A stretch of DNA of 52,428 bases from contig NZ_RAWI01000020.1 in NCBI RefSeq assembly GCF_003612125.1, positions 1-52,428 on the forward strand, written 5' to 3'. This document shows positions 41,661 to 52,428 of the stretch, piece by piece; positions within the stretch are counted from its first letter, which is position 1; each line of letters opens with the position of its first letter. The notes beneath the pieces were generated by a model. That model saw only the letters and a list, made by a program, of their open reading frames with translations. It did no database searches and was not told where the DNA came from. This DNA comes from Corallococcus praedator. Lineage in GTDB: Bacteria > Myxococcota > Myxococcia > Myxococcales > Myxococcaceae. The position numbers and the translations under genes were made by a program.

Positions 41661-43112
41661 TCACGCCCATGCCTTGCGGACCTCCGCGTAGTAGTTGCGG
41701 AAGAACGGCACCATCGCCGCGCGGTTGCCGTCCACGATGGCCAGCAGCTCCGGCGGCAGGACGAACTCCTCCTCCCCCAGCTCGTCGTAGAGCGAGTCCA
41801 GCATCTGCTGGTAGAACCGGGGGAAGGAGCGGTGCCAGCCGACCTTCGGCAGGCGGATGCCGTGCTCCCAGCCCATGGCCAGGTAGTGCTTGAGCGCCTC
41901 CGCTCGCGCCTCCGCCAGCGTGTAGAGGGAGATGGGTTTGCGCTCCGGCGGGAAGTCCTCGTTGACGAGCCCGGACTCCCCGCGCATCCGCCGCGCCAGG
42001 TGCTGGCCGAGCAGGGGCGACTGGAACAGGCCGTCCCGGTAGGTGCCGGTGAGCAGCCACAGGCCGTCCACGGACGTCGGGCCCATCAGGGGACAGGTGT
42101 CCACGGTGACGGGCCTGTTGCCCGCCTGCCAGCCGACGAGCTGCGCGGCGCAGAGGTCCTGGTCGATCTGCTCCAGGACGCACTCCAGCAGGAAGAACAT
42201 GTCGGCCGGCGTGGTGCGCAGCATCGGCCGCGCCATCAGGATGTTCGTCGCGCCGAAGTAGAGCTGGTTGCCCGCGCGGGGCATGCCGTGCAGGCCGCAG
42301 GCGAACGCGCGGTTCGGCGTCCGCACCACGTGCTTGAGCTGGGTCTTCGGCACCTGGAGCAGCAGCGACGTCCCTCCCCCGCTGAAGATGCGCGGGATGC
42401 GGCGCGCCAGCTCCGGAAGCTCGTCGAGGACCGCCTGCGTCCCGACGCCCATGGCGAGCACCACCTGGGGGGCCGCGAGCGTCCGGCCGTCCTCGAGCCG
42501 GACGCCGGTGACACGCCCCGCGCTCACGTCGAGCGCCTTGACCGCCCCGTCGATGAGCGAAACCCTGGAGGACTGTTCGAGGACCCGCGTGAGCCCCCGC
42601 AGCAGGCGGCTTGCGTCCACCGAGCCCTCGCGCGGCAGGAACAAGGCCCGCTTCGGCCGGCAGTCCTCCGCGGGGTACAGGCCGGGAACCTGGTTCGGAT
42701 CCAGCTCCTCGAAGGGCTCGCCCTCCGCCGTCGCCGCCTGCTGGATGGCGGCGTAGTTCTCATCCTCGATGGTTCCCGACTTCGCGTTGCTGAACACGAT
42801 GGTGCCGGCGTCGAGCCGCACCTGCTCCTCCGGGGGCAGCTCGCTGTTCAAGCCCTCCAGCCACGCGGGCCAGAGGCGGGCGGCGAGCACCCCCTGGGCA
42901 TGCCGCGCCCGGCCCGGCGCGGTGCGCAGCAATGGGGCCGTCACCTCGCCGTAGCAGCCCAGCATCGCGCCCGCGGCGCCGGACGCGCCACCGGGTCGGC
43001 CCGCGGGTCCCACCACCGCGATTCGCAGGTTGGAATCCTGGAGCGACAGGGCACGCGCGGTCGCCAGACCCAACGCGCCATTTCCCGCCACCACGACGTC
43101 ATAGGTGCTCAT
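41661..43112 (-). CDS. FAD-dependent oxidoreductase (DAO/ThiO-like) in RiPP-like locus
   Basis: A 483-aa flavoenzyme of the D-amino-acid/glycine oxidase (DAO) family. The N-terminal dinucleotide motif VVVAGNGALGLATARALSLQ (GxGxxG), GGASGAAGAMLGCYGEV, and the C-terminal GLWLLTGTYRDGLFQSPLLG are typical. The frame extends to 43301, but ATG 43112 has GAGGG upstream and starts exactly at the Rossmann strand. It is downstream of the 50-codon precursor-like gene and the two HExxH hydroxylase homologues on the same strand, after a hairpin. A role in oxidising the modified peptide, an amino-acid building block, or an unrelated amine is possible; which one is not shown. Confidence 0.85.
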   Translation of the reverse strand: MSTYDVVVAGNGALGLATARALSLQDSNLRIAVVGPAGRPGGASGAAGAMLGCYGEVTAPLLRTAPGRARHAQGVLAARLWPAWLEGLNSELPPEEQVRLDAGTIVFSNAKSGTIEDENYAAIQQAATAEGEPFEELDPNQVPGLYPAEDCRPKRALFLPREGSVDASRLLRGLTRVLEQSSRVSLIDGAVKALDVSAGRVTGVRLEDGRTLAAPQVVLAMGVGTQAVLDELPELARRIPRIFSGGGTSLLLQVPKTQLKHVVRTPNRAFACGLHGMPRAGNQLYFGATNILMARPMLRTTPADMFFLLECVLEQIDQDLCAAQLVGWQAGNRPVTVDTCPLMGPTSVDGLWLLTGTYRDGLFQSPLLGQHLARRMRGESGLVNEDFPPERKPISLYTLAEARAEALKHYLAMGWEHGIRLPKVGWHRSFPRFYQQMLDSLYDELGEEEFVLPPELLAIVDGNRAAMVPFFRNYYAEVRKAWA

Positions 43113-43239: not shown

Positions 43240-43392
43240 TCAGTCTTCCTTCTTCGCCGTGTCGGAGACGATGTACGGCGGCCACCACTGGCGCTCCGCA
43301 CTCGACCCGCACGTCACGGTCGGCTCCTGCAGCTGCTCCTTCTTGGCCAGGAGGTCCTTCACGGTCTCAAGCCACTGCGATCCGTTGTTCAT
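43240..43392 (-). CDS. 50-aa RiPP precursor-like peptide
   Basis: A 50-codon gene with an excellent RBS (AAGGAG, 8 bases before ATG 43392) whose ATG overlaps the TGA of the upstream hydroxylase gene (ATGA). Residues 1-24 form a charged amphipathic helix (QWLETVKDLLAKKEQLQEP), as expected for a leader. The rest has a distinct composition: one Cys (C28) in TVTCGSS, then AERQWWPPYIVSD with a Trp-Trp-Pro-Pro-Tyr block at 36-40, and a charged tail TAKKED. Position and coupling to two PqqD-fused HExxH enzymes make it the likely substrate. I know no named family with this WWPPY core. The product structure and cleavage site are unknown. Confidence 0.78.
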   Translation of the reverse strand: MNNGSQWLETVKDLLAKKEQLQEPTVTCGSSAERQWWPPYIVSDTAKKED

Positions 43393-44843
43393 GCGATTTC
43401 TCCTTGCTGCCGGGTTGGCTCTACGAGGGTGCTGCGTACAAGCGTCTCCAGTCCCGTGCGCAGCTGGCGGCGTGCTTCATCGGGGGCAACACGCCCCCCG
43501 ATCGCCTCCAGATACGCCCGCTCCATCTCAGCGAACGTCCGGCCATCGCTGAGTTCGAAGATCAGCCACGCATTCAGATCGAGCCAATGCAGCTTTGGCG
43601 CGTCCGGCGAGAAGACCATCAGGCACTCGCCCCGGGTCGAGGGGCGGGCCCGCAGACCGCGAACCTTCTGGTAGGCCGCCTTCTCGGGGGCGCTCGCGCG
43701 CCCTCCGGCCGCCTTGCTGAACACCTCGCGGTCGACGGGTGCCAGGGAGTCACTCAGCCACCGGACGAAGTCCCGCCCTTGAGGCGTCAGCAGATGCGAC
43801 CATTCCGTCTGGAGCTGTTCGCCCAGGTAGCGCGCCCGGTCCACCGAGCGTCCGAAGCGCGAGCCGCCGTCGTTGTTCACCACCGACATCGCATGCGGAC
43901 GCGTGGCGTAGGCGGACGGGTCCCCGAAGCGCTCGATGAGCGAACGGTCCGCCGACAGCGCGGCGGCCTTGAAGAGCGCCAGATGGACATACACATGGTA
44001 GGCGAACACCGTGCGGACGATGGACCAGCGCACGTCCCGCCAGGGCACCTGGATGGTCTCCTCGGGCTTCGCCGCGATCGACACCGAGCGGGTGGCGTCG
44101 AAGAGCTTCATGTGAAGCCCTTCGTGCAGAAGGCACCCGGCGACATCCCAGGGGTTCCCCAGGTCCTTCAGCGACAGGAAGATGGTGGAGGGCGTCAGGT
44201 CCCCGCCGGCGGCGGACAGGACGGTGCCACCTTCGAGCCGGGCGCTGAGCAGCGCGATGGCCTCGATGTGCGTCAGCGCGCTCGCCCCTGAATGCGGCAG
44301 CAGCTGGGAGAGCAGCGCGATGGAGTCGTTGATCTTCCCCTGGGCGGACGCATCCGGGCTCAGCAGCTTCCCGCCGCTCTTGGGGTTCGTCAGGAAGATG
44401 CCGTCGAACGCCGCATGCAGCGCCTTGGAATAGGCATCCCCGCGTTGGGCCACGTCCCACAGCCACTTCGGGGTCTCCGTGCCCACGCGAAAGCGCGACG
44501 GCATGCGCGACTCGCACAGTCCCAGGGGAAGCGCCTCCAGCGCTCCGGGCAACATCTCCTCCAGGGGATGGGGTGACGCCAGCCGGCCCGCCTCCAGGTC
44601 GGAGAAGGCCTGCTCCAGCGTCAGCCGGACCAGCGGGTCGAAGAAGATGCGACGTGCATCGACATCGTTGAGCGCCTCCACGGCGGTCACCGCGTGAGAC
44701 AGGGAGGGCAGCCGCTCGGCGAACAGCTCCAGGCCGAAGCGATAGCGGGTCAGGACCTTCGCGAGGATGCGCGGCGAGTCTCCGAAGGAGGGATGCCCGG
44801 TCAGGGCCCGGTCCGCCGCGTGGATGACGTCCGAAGCGCCCAT
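43389..44843 (-). CDS. HExxH-type (2-oxoglutarate) peptide beta-hydroxylase homologue, copy 2
   Basis: A 484-aa protein of the family now called aKG-HExxH-type peptide beta-hydroxylase (formerly TIGR04267 HExxH RiPP modification protein). The signature NPWDVAGCLLHEGLHMKLFD gives HEGLH at 240-244; further shared blocks are FAYHVYVHLALFKAA and PHAMSVVNNDGGSRF. The C-terminal 80 residues look like a PqqD-type leader-binding domain (GECLMVFSPDAPKLHWLDLN, AWLIFELSDGRTFAEMERAY). It starts at ATG 44843, which shares its A with the TGA of copy 1 (TGATG); GTG 44846 is an alternative. It is followed by the coupled precursor gene. Catalysis is inferred from the family. Confidence 0.82.
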   Translation of the reverse strand: MGASDVIHAADRALTGHPSFGDSPRILAKVLTRYRFGLELFAERLPSLSHAVTAVEALNDVDARRIFFDPLVRLTLEQAFSDLEAGRLASPHPLEEMLPGALEALPLGLCESRMPSRFRVGTETPKWLWDVAQRGDAYSKALHAAFDGIFLTNPKSGGKLLSPDASAQGKINDSIALLSQLLPHSGASALTHIEAIALLSARLEGGTVLSAAGGDLTPSTIFLSLKDLGNPWDVAGCLLHEGLHMKLFDATRSVSIAAKPEETIQVPWRDVRWSIVRTVFAYHVYVHLALFKAAALSADRSLIERFGDPSAYATRPHAMSVVNNDGGSRFGRSVDRARYLGEQLQTEWSHLLTPQGRDFVRWLSDSLAPVDREVFSKAAGGRASAPEKAAYQKVRGLRARPSTRGECLMVFSPDAPKLHWLDLNAWLIFELSDGRTFAEMERAYLEAIGGRVAPDEARRQLRTGLETLVRSTLVEPTRQQGEIA

Positions 44844-46345
44844 CACGACACCCGCCCTTCGGTGACCGGTTCAATCATTCCACTCGACACGAGTCCCTCG
44901 AGGGTCGGCGCGAGCTGGGCCCAGGCGCGCTCGGCCCCGAGTCCCAGCGACGCGGTATAGGAGGACAGCATCTCTTCCTCGGTCTTGCCGTCGCACAGCT
45001 CGAAGGCCAGCCAGGCCGGAAGGTTCAGCGTGACGATCTTCCGCGAGCCCGGATCCAGGGCGAACAGCACCTCCGAGGACGGCGAGCGGCGCAGGGAGAG
45101 GTCCCGGCCCTGCCGATAGCGCACCGGCGAGGGGGCCCGGCCCTGGGTGAGCACCGGTGGCCTCGCGACAGGCCCCATCGGTCCGCCGGGCCGGTCGCTG
45201 CCCAGGGCCTCCAGGGGACGGATCGCCTCCCAGAGCCAGGCGATCATCTCCCGCCCGTACGGCGTCACCCGCGACGCCAGTGGGCCTTCCAGTTGGGTGT
45301 GCAGGAAGTCGAGCCGCTCCTCCGCCCGGGAGAAGGGCTTCTGGGTGTCGTTGTTCACCACCGACATCGCGTGGGCCGGCGCGCTGTAGTCCCGAGGCGC
45401 ACCGAACTCCGCGTGGCAGCCAGGCCCGAGGTGCTCCACGGCGGCTCGGAACACCTGCATGTGCGCATACGCGTGGTAGGCGAAGATGCTGTTCGACAGT
45501 GAGGTCTTCCTGCCCCAGGCCAGCTCGACAGGGCCGTCATCCGTCACGATGGCGCCCGTGCGAATCAGGTCGGAGAGCTTGAGGTGGATGGCCTCATGCA
45601 GGATGTGACCCGCCGTATCCCAGGGGTTCTCCAGCTCGTGCGGGTCGATGAAGATCATGCACGGGGTGCCGTCGCCCCCGGAGCCCGTCAACATCCGGCC
45701 TCGCGGCCCCCGGATGTTCGCGATGGCGATGGAGTGCAGGTGTCGGAAGATGCTGGCCGTCATCTCCGGCACCAGCCGCTGGATCAGCACGCAAGCGCGC
45801 TCCAGTCCCGCGACCATGGACAGCGTGGGGCGGATGATGTCGACGCTGCTTTCGGCGCCCGGCATGAACCCGGTGCGGATGCTCTCGCGCAGCCTGTCGC
45901 GCAGGGGCGTCGCCTCCTCCGGGAGATCCCACACCCAGACCTTGCCCCCGGGGCCCACGGCCAGGTCGCGTCCCATCGCGGAGCGAGAGAGGCACCGGCC
46001 CGGCGTTCGCGCGACACATGCGAGGGCTTCCCCCAGCAACCCGGGCAGCTCCTCGCCCGCGGCCCCATCCGGTCCTGACGTCTCCAGTCGGCTGATGGCG
46101 GCCTCCAGCGCCGCGCGCACGAGCAGATCACCCAACACGGCTTCCGCCGTCGTGGCGTCCAAGGCCTCGATGCGACCCGCGACGTCACGCAGACGCGCGT
46201 CCCGCCGGGCCAGGACCTCCAGCGCGAACCGGTAGCGCTCGCTGACGCGCAGCACGATCCGCGACGAGTTTCCGAACTGCTCGTGATGCTGAAGTCGGCC
46301 GTCGGTGAGCCGGATCACATCCGTTCGTTGCACGCTGTTCTCCAT
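44843..46345 (-). CDS. HExxH-type (2-oxoglutarate) peptide beta-hydroxylase homologue, copy 1
   Basis: A 500-aa paralogue of the next gene, first in the leftward RiPP-like operon. Signature NPWDTAGHILHEAIHLKLSD contains HEAIH (250-254 in this numbering); FAYHAYAHMQVFRAA and AHAMSVVNNDTQKPF match copy 2. The C-terminal domain (EVLFALDPGSRKIVTLNLPA, WLAFELCDGKTEEEMLSSYT) is a good PqqD-like match. ATG 46345 aligns with the start of copy 2; ATG 46375 would add 10 residues and neither has a strong RBS. Two divergent paralogues (different active-site neighbours) suggest two modification events or a catalytic/helper pair on the same leader. Confidence 0.8.
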   Translation of the reverse strand: MENSVQRTDVIRLTDGRLQHHEQFGNSSRIVLRVSERYRFALEVLARRDARLRDVAGRIEALDATTAEAVLGDLLVRAALEAAISRLETSGPDGAAGEELPGLLGEALACVARTPGRCLSRSAMGRDLAVGPGGKVWVWDLPEEATPLRDRLRESIRTGFMPGAESSVDIIRPTLSMVAGLERACVLIQRLVPEMTASIFRHLHSIAIANIRGPRGRMLTGSGGDGTPCMIFIDPHELENPWDTAGHILHEAIHLKLSDLIRTGAIVTDDGPVELAWGRKTSLSNSIFAYHAYAHMQVFRAAVEHLGPGCHAEFGAPRDYSAPAHAMSVVNNDTQKPFSRAEERLDFLHTQLEGPLASRVTPYGREMIAWLWEAIRPLEALGSDRPGGPMGPVARPPVLTQGRAPSPVRYRQGRDLSLRRSPSSEVLFALDPGSRKIVTLNLPAWLAFELCDGKTEEEMLSSYTASLGLGAERAWAQLAPTLEGLVSSGMIEPVTEGRVS

Positions 46346-46701
46346 TCGAATGGCAGCCACACCGACACCCGCCATCCCGGTATATCCAGCATTTCAGTTG
46401 AAATGGTGCCAGTCCGTCCCGCATGCCACAAGCCCCCGGGACCTGACTTCTTTCCAGGGTCGAATCCCGAACGCATTCGACAGACGCGGCAGGGCAGCCC
46501 CATCCCCTTCCCTCTGAACAGGGCCACGGTGGGAGCCTATTCTTCAGCGTGAAGCACTCATGACGCGCACGGACCTGGGCGTATAAATCCAGCTGTCATT
46601 GAATCGCTCACCAGAAGCGGTCCTGTCTCGCGGAAAAAATCCCAGGAGAAGGGAACGCATCTGTCTGGGGTTGGAGCACACCGCGGGATAAGGTGCCCGC
46701 C
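46346..46701. other. Intergenic region upstream of the RiPP-like operon
   Basis: A 356-bp gap between divergent genes. It should contain the promoters of the HExxH operon (leftward) and of the YhhN gene (rightward). I see no convincing -35/-10 pair, no second precursor-like ORF with an RBS, and no RNA gene. AT-richer patches occur at 46379-46400 and 46580-46600. Confidence 0.4.
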
Positions 46702-47403: not shown

Positions 47404-47552
47404 CGCGGACTGACATCTCCGTGCAGGTGATACCTCAAGGGTTTTCCAAGTATCAGCGGTATCCCAGAAAGCATGGACGGATTCGCGGGGCCTGCCCTTG
47501 CGTTGTCACACCGGGAGTGCGTTACGCTTTCGAGGACACGGGGGGATGCCAC

Positions 47553-48095
47553 ATGAGTGAAGAGATTGTGTATCGGCATACGATCGAGGGACTCTTTCGT
47601 TCCATTGGCAGACGTCTCACGCCAGAGCTCCAGGACAAGTTGCGAGACGCCGGGCTGGACCTCGACCTGAAGCTTCCCCGGAACACGCCCCGGACGGTCT
47701 TCGCTGAAGCCCTGCGGATCACCGCTTCGCATCTGCATCCCGACGCCGAGGTGTCCGAGGGCTACCGGAGGCTCGGCATCGGCATCATCCAGGGGATGGA
47801 GCAGACGATGCTGGGCAAGGCGCTCGTGTCGATGTGGCCCATCTTCGGCCCGGAGCGGGTCGTCGTCCGGATCCAGGAGAGCTTCGCCACCGTGAACAAC
47901 TATCAGAAGTCCGAACTCGACACGCAGGGCCCCGCGCACCACGTCATCCGGGTGAGCGAGTGCAACGGGAACCCCGGCTACCTGCAGGGCATCATCGAAG
48001 CGAGCCTGACGAAGGCCGGGGCCCGGAACCTGCGGGTCGAACCGTTCGACTTCGACGGCCACGCCTGCTCCTACCGCGTCCGCTGGGAGCCCTGA
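47553..48095 (+). CDS. DUF2378 family protein (myxobacterial TIGR02265)
   Basis: A 180-aa cytoplasmic protein of the DUF2378/TIGR02265 family, a paralogous set largely confined to myxobacteria. Typical features: IYRHTIEGLFRSI-type start (here VYRHTIEGLFRSIGRRL), EALRITASHLHPDAEVSEGY, RRLGIGIIQGMEQTMLGKAL, and the C-terminal beta region with GNPGYLQGIIEASLTKAGA and CSYRVRWEP. The function is unknown; the fold resembles heme-NO-binding/V4R-like sensors. The frame opens at 47421, but ATG 47553 after GGGGGAT starts the family N-terminus. It is a useful taxonomic marker for the window. Confidence 0.85.
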   Translation: MSEEIVYRHTIEGLFRSIGRRLTPELQDKLRDAGLDLDLKLPRNTPRTVFAEALRITASHLHPDAEVSEGYRRLGIGIIQGMEQTMLGKALVSMWPIFGPERVVVRIQESFATVNNYQKSELDTQGPAHHVIRVSECNGNPGYLQGIIEASLTKAGARNLRVEPFDFDGHACSYRVRWEP

Positions 48096-48172
48096 ATCAC
48101 CGCCCCTTCAGCGGGGGCTTTGCCCGTCCGCAGCGCTGGGGTAGGAGTCCTGGCGCAGGTCAGCGCGATGCG

Positions 48173-48580
48173 ATGGGTGCCCGCATGGAGACGAAGCCAG
48201 ACACACGAACGGACCGGCGCCCCGACGCCATCCACCAGGGGGACCTCTTCTGGATGGAGTCGGATGAGTCGCGGGGGTCGATTCCGCCCATCCCCCACCC
48301 CCATGTGGTGCTCCAGGAGGATGTCTTCAACCGCTCCCGCATCCACACCGTGATTGTCTGTGCATTGACGTCGAACCTGAAGCGGGCGAACGAACCCGGC
48401 AACGTGCTGCTCGACGTGGGCGAAGGCAACCTGCCCAGGCAGAGCGTCCTCGTGGTGTCGCAGGTGTCCTCGGTCGAGAAGTCCCGGTTGGGCGAATACA
48501 TCGGGTCGCTGTCCGGGGAACGGGTGCAACAGGTCCTGGCGGGAATGAAATTCCAGCAGGCCTCTTTCTTCGACCGCTAG
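48173..48580 (+). CDS. PemK/MazF-like toxin, no adjacent antitoxin
   Basis: A 135-aa protein with the MazF/PemK fold signature: IHQGDLFWMESDE, IPHPHVVLQEDVFNRSRIHT, VIVCALTSNLKRANEPGNVL, LPRQSVLVVSQVSSVEKSRL, GEYIGSLSGERVQQVLAGM. These are mRNA-cleaving endoribonucleases. ATG 48173 is chosen (ATG 48185 possible; AGGT upstream is weak). No small antitoxin gene precedes or follows: upstream is DUF2378, downstream the NRPS. Solitary MazF is known in Myxococcus xanthus, where the regulator MrpC has been reported as its antitoxin during development; orthology to that gene is not established here. Confidence 0.82.
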   Translation: MGARMETKPDTRTDRRPDAIHQGDLFWMESDESRGSIPPIPHPHVVLQEDVFNRSRIHTVIVCALTSNLKRANEPGNVLLDVGEGNLPRQSVLVVSQVSSVEKSRLGEYIGSLSGERVQQVLAGMKFQQASFFDR

Positions 48581-48807: not shown

Positions 48808-51800
48808 ATGCGTACCCCCACGTCGATCAGCGGCCATCTGGAGTTGCATGCCGCTGCGCAGCCCCATCGGCTCGCCTACCGCTACCTGACGACCGGCGAC
48901 TCCGACGGGCCGGTGGAGACGCTGACGTGGGCGGAGCTGGACCGCCGGGTGCGCGCGGTGGCGGCGGCCCTGCAACGCGCCGGGGCCACGGGAGAACGGG
49001 CGCTGCTGCTGTACCCGCCGGGGCTCGACTTCGTGGTGGCGTTCCTGGGGTGCCTCGCCTCGGGCGTGATTGCCGCCCCTGCCTACCCTCCGGATCCAGG
49101 TCGTCTGGAGCGGACGCTGGGCCGGCTCCGCGCCATCGCTCGGGACTGTGACGCGCGGCTGGTGCTCACCACTGCGGCCATCGCGGGGATGGCCGAGGCG
49201 CTGCATCCCATGGCGCCGGAGCTGGGAGAGCTCCAGTGGGTGGCGTCGGATGCGGTGCCCGACGACGAGGCGGACGCCTGGCGACGTCCGGCGCTCGCGA
49301 CCTCGGGCGTCGCGTTCCTGCAGTACACGTCGGGGTCTACCGGGACGCCGAAGGGCGTCGTCATCACCCACGACAACCTCCTGCACAACGAGCGGATGCT
49401 CAAGCAGGGCTTCGGCCACTCCATCGAGGGGAGCAGCGGCGTCGGTTGGCTGCCGCTCTACCACGACATGGGACTCATCGGGAACGTGCTGCAGCCGCTC
49501 TACATCGGCATGCCGTGCACGCTGATGTCTCCGCTGGCCTTCCTGCAGCGCCCGTCGCGCTGGCTGCGCGCCATCTCCACCTTCCGGGGGACGACGAGCG
49601 GCGGGCCGAACTTCGCCTACGACCTGTGCGTGCGAAAGGTCACGGAGGCGGAGCGCGCCGGGCTGGACCTGTCGAGCTGGGACGTGGCCTTCAACGGGGC
49701 GGAGCCGGTGCGCACGGCGACGCTCGAGCGCTTCGCGGCGGCCTTCGCGGCGCATGGCTTCCGCAGGGAGGTCTTCTACCCGTGCTACGGGCTCGCCGAG
49801 TCCACGCTGTTCGTGACCGGGCCGGTGAAGGCCGCGGCGCCCCCCGTCGTCGTCTCGCTCGACGTGCCGGCACTGGAGCAGGGGCGCGTGGTGCCCCTGG
49901 CGGAGGAGTCGCACGGCGCGCGCACGCTGGTGGGCTGCGGGCACGCCTGGCTGGAGCAGCGGGTGGCCATCGTCGACCCGGTGAGCGGACGGCGTGCGGG
50001 CGATGACTCGGTGGGGGAGATCTGGGTCTCCGGGCCGAGCGTGGCGCGGGGCTACTGGAACAACCCGGAGGCGACCGCGAAGACGTTCGAGGCGCGGATC
50101 GCGGACACGGGTGAGGGGCCCTTCCTGCGGACGGGCGACCTGGGCTTCCAGCACGGGGGCGCGCTGTTCGTCACGGGGCGGCTCAAGGACCTGATCATCG
50201 TGCGTGGGCGCAACCTGTACCCGCAGGATGTGGAGCTGACCGCCGAGCAGGCCCACACGGCGGTGCGGCAGGGGTGTGCCGCGGCGTTCGGGCTGGAGGT
50301 GGCGGGCGAGGAGCAGCTCGTCGTCGTCGCGGAGGTGGACGAGCGCGCTGGCACGCCAGCGGCCGAGGTCGCGGCGGCGATCCGGGAGGCGGTGGCGGCG
50401 GAGCACGGGGTCGTCGTGCACGCGGTGGCGCTCCTGCAATCGCGGACGCTGCCGAAGACGACGAGCGGCAAGGTGCAGCGCCACGCGTGCCGCAACGCCT
50501 TCGTGGAAGGAACGCTCTCGCTCGTGTCGGAGGTGGCGTTCGCCCCGGCGAGGGTCGAGCCGTCACCGGAGGACGCGGCGGCGCAGGGACTGGAAGCCTG
50601 GCTGTTCGCGAGGATCGCCGCGCTCACCGGCACGCCCGTGGGGGCGATTGATCCGGGGCAGCCGTTCGCCCACTACGGGATGGACTCCAAGGACCTCGTG
50701 GGCCTGTCTGGAGACCTGGAGACCCGTCTGGACCGGCCGGTCTCCCCCGCCCTGATGTATGAGCAGCCGAGCCTCACCGCGCTGCTGCGGCACCTGGAGG
50801 GGAGCACGGAGCAGGGGCAGCCGGTGCCCATCTCCCGCTCGGAGCAGTTGGAGACGGAGCCGGGTCCCCTGTCGGCGGGCGGGGCGCGACTGCTCGTGCT
50901 CGACCGGCTGGCGCCCGGCAGCGCGCTGTACAACATCCACGCCGGGCTCTCCATGAAGGGCGCCCTCGACGCGGGCGCGCTGCGCAGGAGCCTGAACGCG
51001 CTCGTCACGCGCCACCCGATGCTGCGGGCCACCTTCCCCGAGTCGGAAGGCCGGCCGGGACTCGTCATCTCCGGCCCTGCCCTCCTGGCGCTGCCCGTCG
51101 TTGATCTGCGCGACCTCCCCCTGGAGAAGCGGCAGGCGGAGCTGGCCCGGCTCTCGGAGGAGCACGCCACGGCGCCCTTCGATCTCACCCGGGGGCCACT
51201 GGTGCGGCTCACCCTGGTGGCGCTCGGGGACGCGGAGCACGTGCTCCTGCTCACGCAGCACCACATCATCACCGACGCGTGGTCCATTGGTGTCTTCGCC
51301 CGCGAGCTGGCCGAGCTGTACGAGGGCTTCCGCACAGGCTCACCCCGGACGCTCGCGGAGCTTCCGGTGCGCTACGCCGACTACGTCCGCTGGCAGGACG
51401 CGTGGCTCCAGGGAGAGGACGCCCGACGTTCGGTGGCGTGGTGGAAGCAGAAGCTCGCGGGGCTGCCCCGGCTGGACCTCCCGACGCCCCGGACACCTGG
51501 CCGTGGAACGACCCATGCGGGTGACGCGTACGCCTTCGCGCTGCCGGCGGGGCTCACGTCGGCATTGAAGGACCTGGCGCGCCGCGAGTCCTGCACGCTG
51601 TACGTCGCGCTCCTGACGGCCTGGGCCACGCTGCTGCATCGCTACTCCCACCAGCAGGCGGACTTCGGGATTGGCACCGTCACCGCGGGGCGCGATCGGC
51701 GCGAGCTGCGCGATGTGGTGGGCTTCTTCGTGAACACGCTCGTCCTGCGCTGCGACCTGTCCGGCGACCCGGAGGGCGGCGTGCTGATGCGCAGGCTTCG

Positions 51801-52428
51801 CGGCGTCGTCGAAGGCGCGCTCCGTCATCAGGAGGTGCCCTTCGATCAGGTGGTGAGCGCCGTCGGGGCGCCCCGGGGACAGGACCTCAACCCGCTCTTC
51901 CGCGCGGGCTTCGTGCTGGAGAACGTGCCCTTTCCCGAGCTGGCCCTCCCGGGACTCACGTGGACGCCCGTGCTCCAGCGGCCGGATGGCGGAGTGCCGG
52001 GCACGGCGAAGTTCGACCTCGGCCTCTCGATGGTGGAGACGAACGGAGGACTCTCCGCGGCCATCGAGTACGCGACCGACCTGTTCGATGCGGCGACGAT
52101 CGAACGGATGGCGGGGCACTTCCAGCGGCTGGTGGAGGGGCTCGTGGAGGCACCGCGGCGGCGGGTGTCGGAGCTGTCGCTCCTGACCGCCGGGGAGCGA
52201 CACCGGCTGCTGAGCGAGTGGAACGAGACGGCGGCGGAGCAGCCCAGGGACGTCTGCCTCCACGAGCTGTTCGAGGCTCAGGCCCGGACGGCGCCCGGGG
52301 CCCTGGCGGTGAGCTTCGGGGCGCAGCGACTCACCTATGGCGAACTCAACCGTCGAGCGAATCAGCTCGCGCACCACCTGCGGGGGCTGGGGGTGGGCCC
52401 GGAGGTGCGGGTCGGGCTGTGCATGGAG
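48808..52428 (+). CDS. NRPS loading and first modules: FAAL-ACP-C-A (3' end outside window)
   Basis: This frame is open from ATG 48808 to the right edge (1207 codons, no stop). Order: fatty acyl-AMP ligase, residues about 1-580 (FLQYTSGSTGTPKGVVITHD; WLPLYHDMGLIGNVLQPLYI; GRNLYPQDVE, the FAAL-specific tail); an acyl carrier protein with HYGMDSKDL, phosphopantetheine Ser627; a condensation domain with HHIITDAWS (His818-His819, Asp823); and the start of an adenylation domain (LTYGELNRRANQLAHHL) at about 1150. It should load a fatty acid and join it to the first amino acid of a lipopeptide. The amino acid code lies outside the window. Confidence 0.9.
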   Translation, partial: MRTPTSISGHLELHAAAQPHRLAYRYLTTGDSDGPVETLTWAELDRRVRAVAAALQRAGATGERALLLYPPGLDFVVAFLGCLASGVIAAPAYPPDPGRLERTLGRLRAIARDCDARLVLTTAAIAGMAEALHPMAPELGELQWVASDAVPDDEADAWRRPALATSGVAFLQYTSGSTGTPKGVVITHDNLLHNERMLKQGFGHSIEGSSGVGWLPLYHDMGLIGNVLQPLYIGMPCTLMSPLAFLQRPSRWLRAISTFRGTTSGGPNFAYDLCVRKVTEAERAGLDLSSWDVAFNGAEPVRTATLERFAAAFAAHGFRREVFYPCYGLAESTLFVTGPVKAAAPPVVVSLDVPALEQGRVVPLAEESHGARTLVGCGHAWLEQRVAIVDPVSGRRAGDDSVGEIWVSGPSVARGYWNNPEATAKTFEARIADTGEGPFLRTGDLGFQHGGALFVTGRLKDLIIVRGRNLYPQDVELTAEQAHTAVRQGCAAAFGLEVAGEEQLVVVAEVDERAGTPAAEVAAAIREAVAAEHGVVVHAVALLQSRTLPKTTSGKVQRHACRNAFVEGTLSLVSEVAFAPARVEPSPEDAAAQGLEAWLFARIAALTGTPVGAIDPGQPFAHYGMDSKDLVGLSGDLETRLDRPVSPALMYEQPSLTALLRHLEGSTEQGQPVPISRSEQLETEPGPLSAGGARLLVLDRLAPGSALYNIHAGLSMKGALDAGALRRSLNALVTRHPMLRATFPESEGRPGLVISGPALLALPVVDLRDLPLEKRQAELARLSEEHATAPFDLTRGPLVRLTLVALGDAEHVLLLTQHHIITDAWSIGVFARELAELYEGFRTGSPRTLAELPVRYADYVRWQDAWLQGEDARRSVAWWKQKLAGLPRLDLPTPRTPGRGTTHAGDAYAFALPAGLTSALKDLARRESCTLYVALLTAWATLLHRYSHQQADFGIGTVTAGRDRRELRDVVGFFVNTLVLRCDLSGDPEGGVLMRRLRGVVEGALRHQEVPFDQVVSAVGAPRGQDLNPLFRAGFVLENVPFPELALPGLTWTPVLQRPDGGVPGTAKFDLGLSMVETNGGLSAAIEYATDLFDAATIERMAGHFQRLVEGLVEAPRRRVSELSLLTAGERHRLLSEWNETAAEQPRDVCLHELFEAQARTAPGALAVSFGAQRLTYGELNRRANQLAHHLRGLGVGPEVRVGLCME

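Follow-up and report, generated by a model that had tools for sequence, protein, structure and literature searches.

A 50-codon open reading frame (ORF) in Corallococcus praedator contig NZ_RAWI01000020.1 (assembly GCF_003612125.1; positions 1 to 52,428, here called the window) raises the question of whether so short a frame is a gene at all and, if so, what the enzymes encoded beside it do with its product. Here we observed that the frame is a real gene, coupled to and kept together with two genes of a peptide beta-hydroxylase family (HExxH-1 and HExxH-2) and one for a flavoenzyme (Table 1). On balance we read the product as the precursor peptide of a ribosomally synthesized and post-translationally modified peptide (RiPP) pathway, in which it would be beta-hydroxylated and N-formimidoylated or N-iminoacetylated, and which as far as our searches reached belongs to one myxobacterial family. 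An earlier, sequence-only reading of this DNA had also proposed a RiPP precursor. Its outline is borne out by a conserved, precursor-like peptide coupled to aKG-HExxH genes with PqqD-like RiPP recognition elements (RREs), but its detailed core and sites did not hold, and it had missed the downstream flavoenzyme.

Table 1. Features of the cassette, with window coordinates, strand and the evidence for each.
Feature	Coordinates	Strand	Evidence
Putative 50-aa precursor peptide gene	43240..43392	-	Translation; full length in 15/145 order genomes; alignment A1; dN/dS
AAGGAG ribosome-binding site of peptide gene, within end of HExxH-1	43400..43405	-	Sequence; motif also in 14/14 other full-length loci
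FAD-dependent N-formimidoyl/iminoacetyl synthase homologue, 483 aa, PF01266 DAO fold	41661..43112	-	phmmer to 8gri; catalytic residues; 14/14 other full-length loci
HExxH-1, 485 aa, aKG-HExxH-type peptide beta-hydroxylase, HEGLH motif	43389..44846	-	TIGR04267; Foldseek
HExxH-2, 510 aa, HEAIH motif, start codon not fixed	44843..46375	-	TIGR04267; in 14/14 other full-length loci
C-terminal PqqD-like RRE segment of HExxH-1 (predicted)	43392..43676	-	AlphaFold2 secondary structure b-b-b-b-a-a-a-b; Pfam PqqD E 0.17
C-terminal PqqD-like RRE segment of HExxH-2 (predicted)	44846..45130	-	Pfam PqqD E 0.00055, 20.7 bits; alignment A5

The ORF is read from the minus strand, a point on which the sequence-only reading was silent, and translates as MNNGSQWLETVKDLLAKKEQLQEPTVTCGSSAERQWWPPYIVSDTAKKED, followed by a stop. 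Both the single Cys (position 28) and the block RQWWPPYIVSD (residues 34–44) that had been described for it can be read in the translation. The spacer between AAGGAG and the ATG is 7 nt, agreeing to within counting with the eight bases given earlier, and the start codon shares an ATGA with the stop codon (TGA) of the upstream HExxH-1 gene, the coupling that had been claimed; overlap and AAGGAG are both present in all 14 other loci with a full-length peptide. The peptide has no match in Pfam or NCBIfam. We propose to divide it into a leader (residues 1–24, with conserved L8, L14 and P24), a core (25–39, VTxGSxxERxWxPP) and a variable tail (40–50).

Homologues in other myxobacteria, which the sequence-only reading had suggested as a check, were found in syntenic loci. 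In a protein search the full-length peptide is encoded in 15 of 145 genomes of the order, that of C. praedator included, at 60–100% identity and E below 1e-16. Searching 195 genomes of the phylum with an 11-row profile returned, at about 1e-24, three more divergent members in a genus that we label g6, which are themselves rows of the profile. With these relatives the credible peptide genomes number 18 of 195, all within one family. Weaker matches were dropped as chance: that in G102 (E 4.6e-4 in the order search, 0.0078 in the profile search) lies in a 162-aa ORF of different composition whose locus, L048, has no HExxH or flavoenzyme match, and those in G084 and G093 (E 0.02 and 0.04) lie in loci (L049, L050) free of any cassette match; rows of the order search at E 0.05 to 1 were left out. 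No match to the peptide was found in 72,556 plasmid records. A scan of a public species-genome collection with the same 11-row alignment gave seven loci, from records titled Corallococcus terminator, a Myxococcaceae metagenome-assembled genome, 'Comamonas sp. KCTC 72670', Myxococcus vastator, M. xanthus AM003, Myxococcus sp. CA023 and Archangium lansinium. The record titled Comamonas (BNCN01000001.1, locus L111) bears the myxobacterial cassette peptide at 86% identity, and its organism name is probably wrong.

The pattern of substitution indicates that the peptide gene is under purifying selection: Nei–Gojobori ratios of nonsynonymous to synonymous substitution rates (dN/dS) against six loci of genus g19 are 0.13–0.28. 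These values, together with the homologues, rule out a chance ORF. The frame is intact in close relatives, three congeners each differing by only one synonymous base in 153 nt, at three different sites, whereas for the neighbouring genes the within-genus medians are 9–16 differences per 153 nt. An RNA element as the cause of this low synonymous divergence is ruled out by a fold z-score of 0.07 for the region and the absence of any Rfam match. That the peptide is so strongly conserved from genus to genus suggests that it serves its producer in some constant capacity and is not a weapon in an arms race.

The peptide gene is one of a cassette of four, in the order HExxH-2, HExxH-1, peptide, flavoenzyme, the last starting 127 nt downstream of the peptide gene. 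When the window genes were compared by tblastn with 20 fetched loci, all four were found together in 14 of the 14 full-length loci from other genomes, while the remaining window ORFs tested matched only in congeners (L035–L037), save one that is antisense to the flavoenzyme gene. The three g6 loci represent a second form, with matches to HExxH and the peptide only and a single HExxH gene adjoining the peptide gene; searching their genomes at E up to 1e-20 gave no flavoenzyme. The g6 HExxH ORF stops at 413 aa and is followed by a separate PqqD-like ORF of 100 aa, found in L045, L046 and L047; in L045 it shares an ATGA with the gene of a 46-aa peptide. As expected of a RiPP cluster, both forms (14/14 other full-length loci and the three g6 loci) have a conserved small precursor-like gene beside modifying enzymes, and, as judged from predicted fold, the cassette has an RRE on a modifying enzyme. 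In G120 a remnant of HExxH-2 (residues 38–66) directly adjoins one of the flavoenzyme (residues 414–483) in a different frame (L133 9812-10109), which is consistent with loss there of the middle of the cassette, peptide included. Three congeners that lack the cassette retain a flanking gene with a CHAP domain.

Which residues the enzymes might recognize can be judged from an alignment of 11 peptides (A1; eight from the four-gene form and three from g6). From residue 24 on, P24, V26, T27, G29, S30, E33, R34, W36, P38 and P39 are invariant. In the g6 rows C28 is replaced by Q, W37 by L and Y40 by H, the last also in the member from genus g3. Cys28 and WWPPY, which had been put forward as the conserved core, therefore vary at Cys28, Trp37 and Tyr40, and the core that is shared is VTxGSxxERxWxPP, which is what an HExxH-1-like enzyme would see in both forms. 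The residues earlier proposed for hydroxylation divide likewise: Glu33, Pro38 and Pro39 are invariant, but position 35 is Q, K or D, and the g3 row has a residue other than Asp at position 44, which in g6 is missing with the rest of the tail. The four-gene peptide thus differs from that of g6 in having Cys28, Trp37 and a charged tail, where g6 has Gln, Leu and no tail. Lysines 12 and 18 are found in all eight four-gene rows and are substituted in g6.

HExxH-1 and HExxH-2 belong by sequence to the aKG-HExxH peptide beta-hydroxylase family, scoring 68.9 and 73.8 bits against TIGR04267 (cut-off 40), and are predicted to be Fe(II)/2-oxoglutarate hydroxylases. They are paralogues, about 34% identical, and the motif residues H241, E242 and H245 are the same in 25 of 25 rows of an alignment (A4). 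An AlphaFold2 model of HExxH-1 (pLDDT 81) has as its top Foldseek matches ChlH (8s5f, E 1.1e-8; TM to target 0.61, rmsd 6.1 Å) and SjiH (22ob, E 8.5e-6); a literature search for SjiH returned unrelated text matches only. No further TIGR04267 members were found in the C. praedator genome. Across the phylum, at E up to 0.001, the family is present in 33 of the 195 genomes, of which 30 score above the cut-off, and so also occurs without this peptide. What is shared with described aKG-HExxH systems (the ChlH domain, PesO, PflC/PosC, BpmH) is the curated family above its cut-off, the fold and an adjoining precursor gene; what differs is the presence of a tandem pair of paralogues, both ending in an RRE-like segment of their own, and the absence from the cassette of a radical S-adenosylmethionine (SAM) or multinuclear non-haem iron-dependent oxidative enzyme as partner. 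Tandem HExxH genes of another kind, about 25–30% identical to those of the window, occur in G099 and G062 (L096 4602-7871, 8806-9024; L091 4093-7008), where a small ORF upstream encodes a GG-type leader and a Cys-containing core (e.g. ...VIGGLVSNVGVGTCGSTYISCGSTY...).

PqqD is the best Pfam match of the last ~95 residues of both HExxH proteins, and an RRE-like fold is predicted for these segments. The stand-alone 100-aa ORF of g6, which is homologous to the HExxH-1 segment, gives an AlphaFold2 model (pLDDT 88) whose top five Foldseek matches are all RREs (TbiB1, PqqD, lasso B1; E 0.0015–0.0094). The likeness to these proteins lies in the predicted fold, whereas the sequence scores fall below the Pfam gathering threshold. 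We regard the peptide as very probably the substrate of the HExxH enzymes.

The flavoenzyme is, we propose from sequence, a homologue of the N-formimidoyl/iminoacetyl synthases, with predicted glycine-dependent transfer. Its closest relative of solved structure is N-formimidoyl fortimicin A synthase (Orf1; 8gri), to which residues 4–482 align with residues 32–511 (phmmer E 9.8e-92; 184/475 identities, 39%), including an extra C-terminal domain of ~100 residues. Mapping the residues listed in the available part of PMC10156733, we find the glycine site intact (A54, G55, A56, M57, H284, Y294, R342 and R368; 8/8), along with C281, which forms the nitrogen–oxygen–sulphur (NOS) bridge, and its partner E426, and three of four tunnel residues (A278, A280, H419). 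Only two of the 11 residues of the streptothricin acceptor pocket are kept (F279, W435), with position 312 counted as changed (8gri has Ala there, which we took as the E312A variant of that paper, the part available naming Glu). This altered pocket points to an acceptor other than streptothricin. All 15 cassette copies are uniform at the catalytic positions. The ThiO glycine oxidase model (TIGR02352) was rejected, at 98.1 bits against a cut-off of 250.8 and with residues that also disagree. The enzyme therefore resembles the N-formimidoyl fortimicin A synthase family (Orf1 of BD-12, Fsm14) in its full length, glycine site, NOS cysteine and Glu426 equivalent, and differs in its acceptor pocket and in belonging to a peptide cassette, not to an aminoglycoside or streptothricin cluster.

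Relatives of the flavoenzyme at 50–52% identity occur in seven further myxobacterial genomes (L126–L132), where there is no peptide; their catalytic residues are almost unchanged (two of the seven have Ser at position 54), their pocket residues are different, and some of these loci hold long ORFs resembling non-ribosomal peptide synthetases (NRPS), as judged from the starts of the translations. In one of them, L126, a radical-SAM-like CxxxCxxC motif stands close to the beginning of two ORFs, accompanied by a weak HExxH match. Plasmid records with flavoenzyme relatives number 17, all below 60% identity; no annotated HExxH gene was seen in the four of these neighbourhoods inspected (Streptomyces finlayi, Agrobacterium tumefaciens, Pseudomonas cerasi and S. 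avidinii). On the P. cerasi plasmid p58T2 (L136 4952-7446) the relative, 33% identical over residues 5–373, adjoins a 2-oxoglutarate/iron oxygenase gene near a peptide deformylase gene.

We suggest that these parts could form a pathway as follows, the substrate, the modified sites, the order of steps and the product all being proposals. The N-terminal 20-odd residues would act as a leader, docking on the C-terminal PqqD-like RREs of HExxH-1 and HExxH-2, which would then use Fe(II) and 2-oxoglutarate to beta-hydroxylate residues within the conserved core TVTCGSSAERQWWPP. For HExxH-1 the first choice would be P38 and P39, followed by E33, R34 and W36, with a precedent for proline hydroxylation in PesO (PMC13060819, in the part available), while HExxH-2 would target a residue peculiar to the peptide of the four-gene cassette. 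The flavoenzyme would oxidize free glycine, keep what is formed bound to Cys272 as an N-O-S adduct and deliver it, as N-formimidoyl or N-iminoacetyl, to an amine that most likely belongs to the peptide, either a lysine or the alpha-amine freed when a protease encoded elsewhere removes the leader. That the peptide is the acceptor seems to us an even chance, and another molecule could take its place.

Several observations weigh against this pathway. Neither a modification nor a transcript, product or function was observed. The flavoenzyme relatives in seven genomes without the peptide indicate that enzymes of this family can do without a peptide as acceptor, and core and tail contain no positionally invariant lysine in A1. 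The PqqD model (PF05402) scores 12.7 to 20.7 bits for the four pieces compared, below its gathering value of 23.4. The chemistry of HExxH enzymes is not predictable from sequence, according to the available part of PMC13060819, and they are also known to cleave the backbone (PMC12636437, likewise as available in part). Finally, a protease or transporter gene, common in RiPP clusters and not required, is absent among the four cassette genes; the PflA cluster is likewise without a protease, as the accessible part of PMC12636437 has it.

One alternative is that only the two HExxH enzymes act on the peptide and that the flavoenzyme is an amino-acid oxidase whose substrate is a small molecule in free form, such as an amino acid liberated from the peptide. 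An analogy is offered by pathways that build on a scaffold peptide, like those of mycofactocin or pyrroloquinoline quinone (PQQ), and the strong conservation of the peptide is like that of redox-cofactor scaffolds. While g6 does without the flavoenzyme, and the enzyme belongs to the DAO family, the retention of the N-formimidoyl synthase hallmarks (the bridge cysteine and its partner, the three tunnel residues and the C-terminal domain) and the wide miss of the ThiO model lead us to consider this explanation unlikely. It is still less probable, in our view, that one of the HExxH enzymes cleaves the backbone oxidatively in the manner of PflC/PosC, removing the tail and leaving a C-terminal amide near the WPP block. 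Such cleavage would fit a tail that is variable and missing in g6, a cassette without a protease gene and the PflC/PosC precedent, yet PflC and PosC recognize a C-terminal ARMD (both points from the available part of PMC12636437) and our peptide has neither this motif nor a Gln run. That the ORF instead encodes a small protein with a regulatory or structural role, or serves to couple translation of HExxH-1 with that of the flavoenzyme, is highly improbable, for its shortness, its unusually few within-genus synonymous changes and its overlap with HExxH-1 are outweighed by the low dN/dS, the empty RNA searches, a downstream gene that starts only after the 127-nt gap and the RRE-bearing modifying enzymes that adjoin it in both forms.

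If the RiPP pathway proposed above is correct, FAD-dependent glycine oxidation, a protein–ligand N-O-S adduct and N-formimidoylation, a chemistry so far known from aminoglycoside- and streptothricin-type antibiotics, would be brought into the chemistry of ribosomal peptides, where a gene encodes the acceptor. The combination of a hydroxylase-like pair with an enzyme of small-antibiotic type would be new for ribosomally made peptides. A literature search, a weak one limited to open-access papers and to titles and the starts of abstracts, found no paper on this peptide or on an N-formimidoylated RiPP. More tentatively, at somewhat less than an even chance, we suggest that here, for the first time in a RiPP family, the precursor is capped by a glycine-derived N-formimidoyl or N-iminoacetyl group through a NOS-bridge flavoenzyme and also beta-hydroxylated by two RRE-guided aKG-HExxH enzymes, and that the g6 form, with its HExxH enzyme, separate RRE and 46-aa peptide, is a relative of the form that existed before the flavoenzyme and second hydroxylase joined. 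The compact four-gene aKG-HExxH system would then have in g6, which does without the flavoenzyme and one hydroxylase, a natural comparison for which residues each enzyme reads.

Outside the conserved cassette, the window also contains an NRPS gene (AMP-binding, carrier and condensation domains) that runs off its end, together with DUF2378 and PemK-like ORFs (48808-52428 and 47421-48580).
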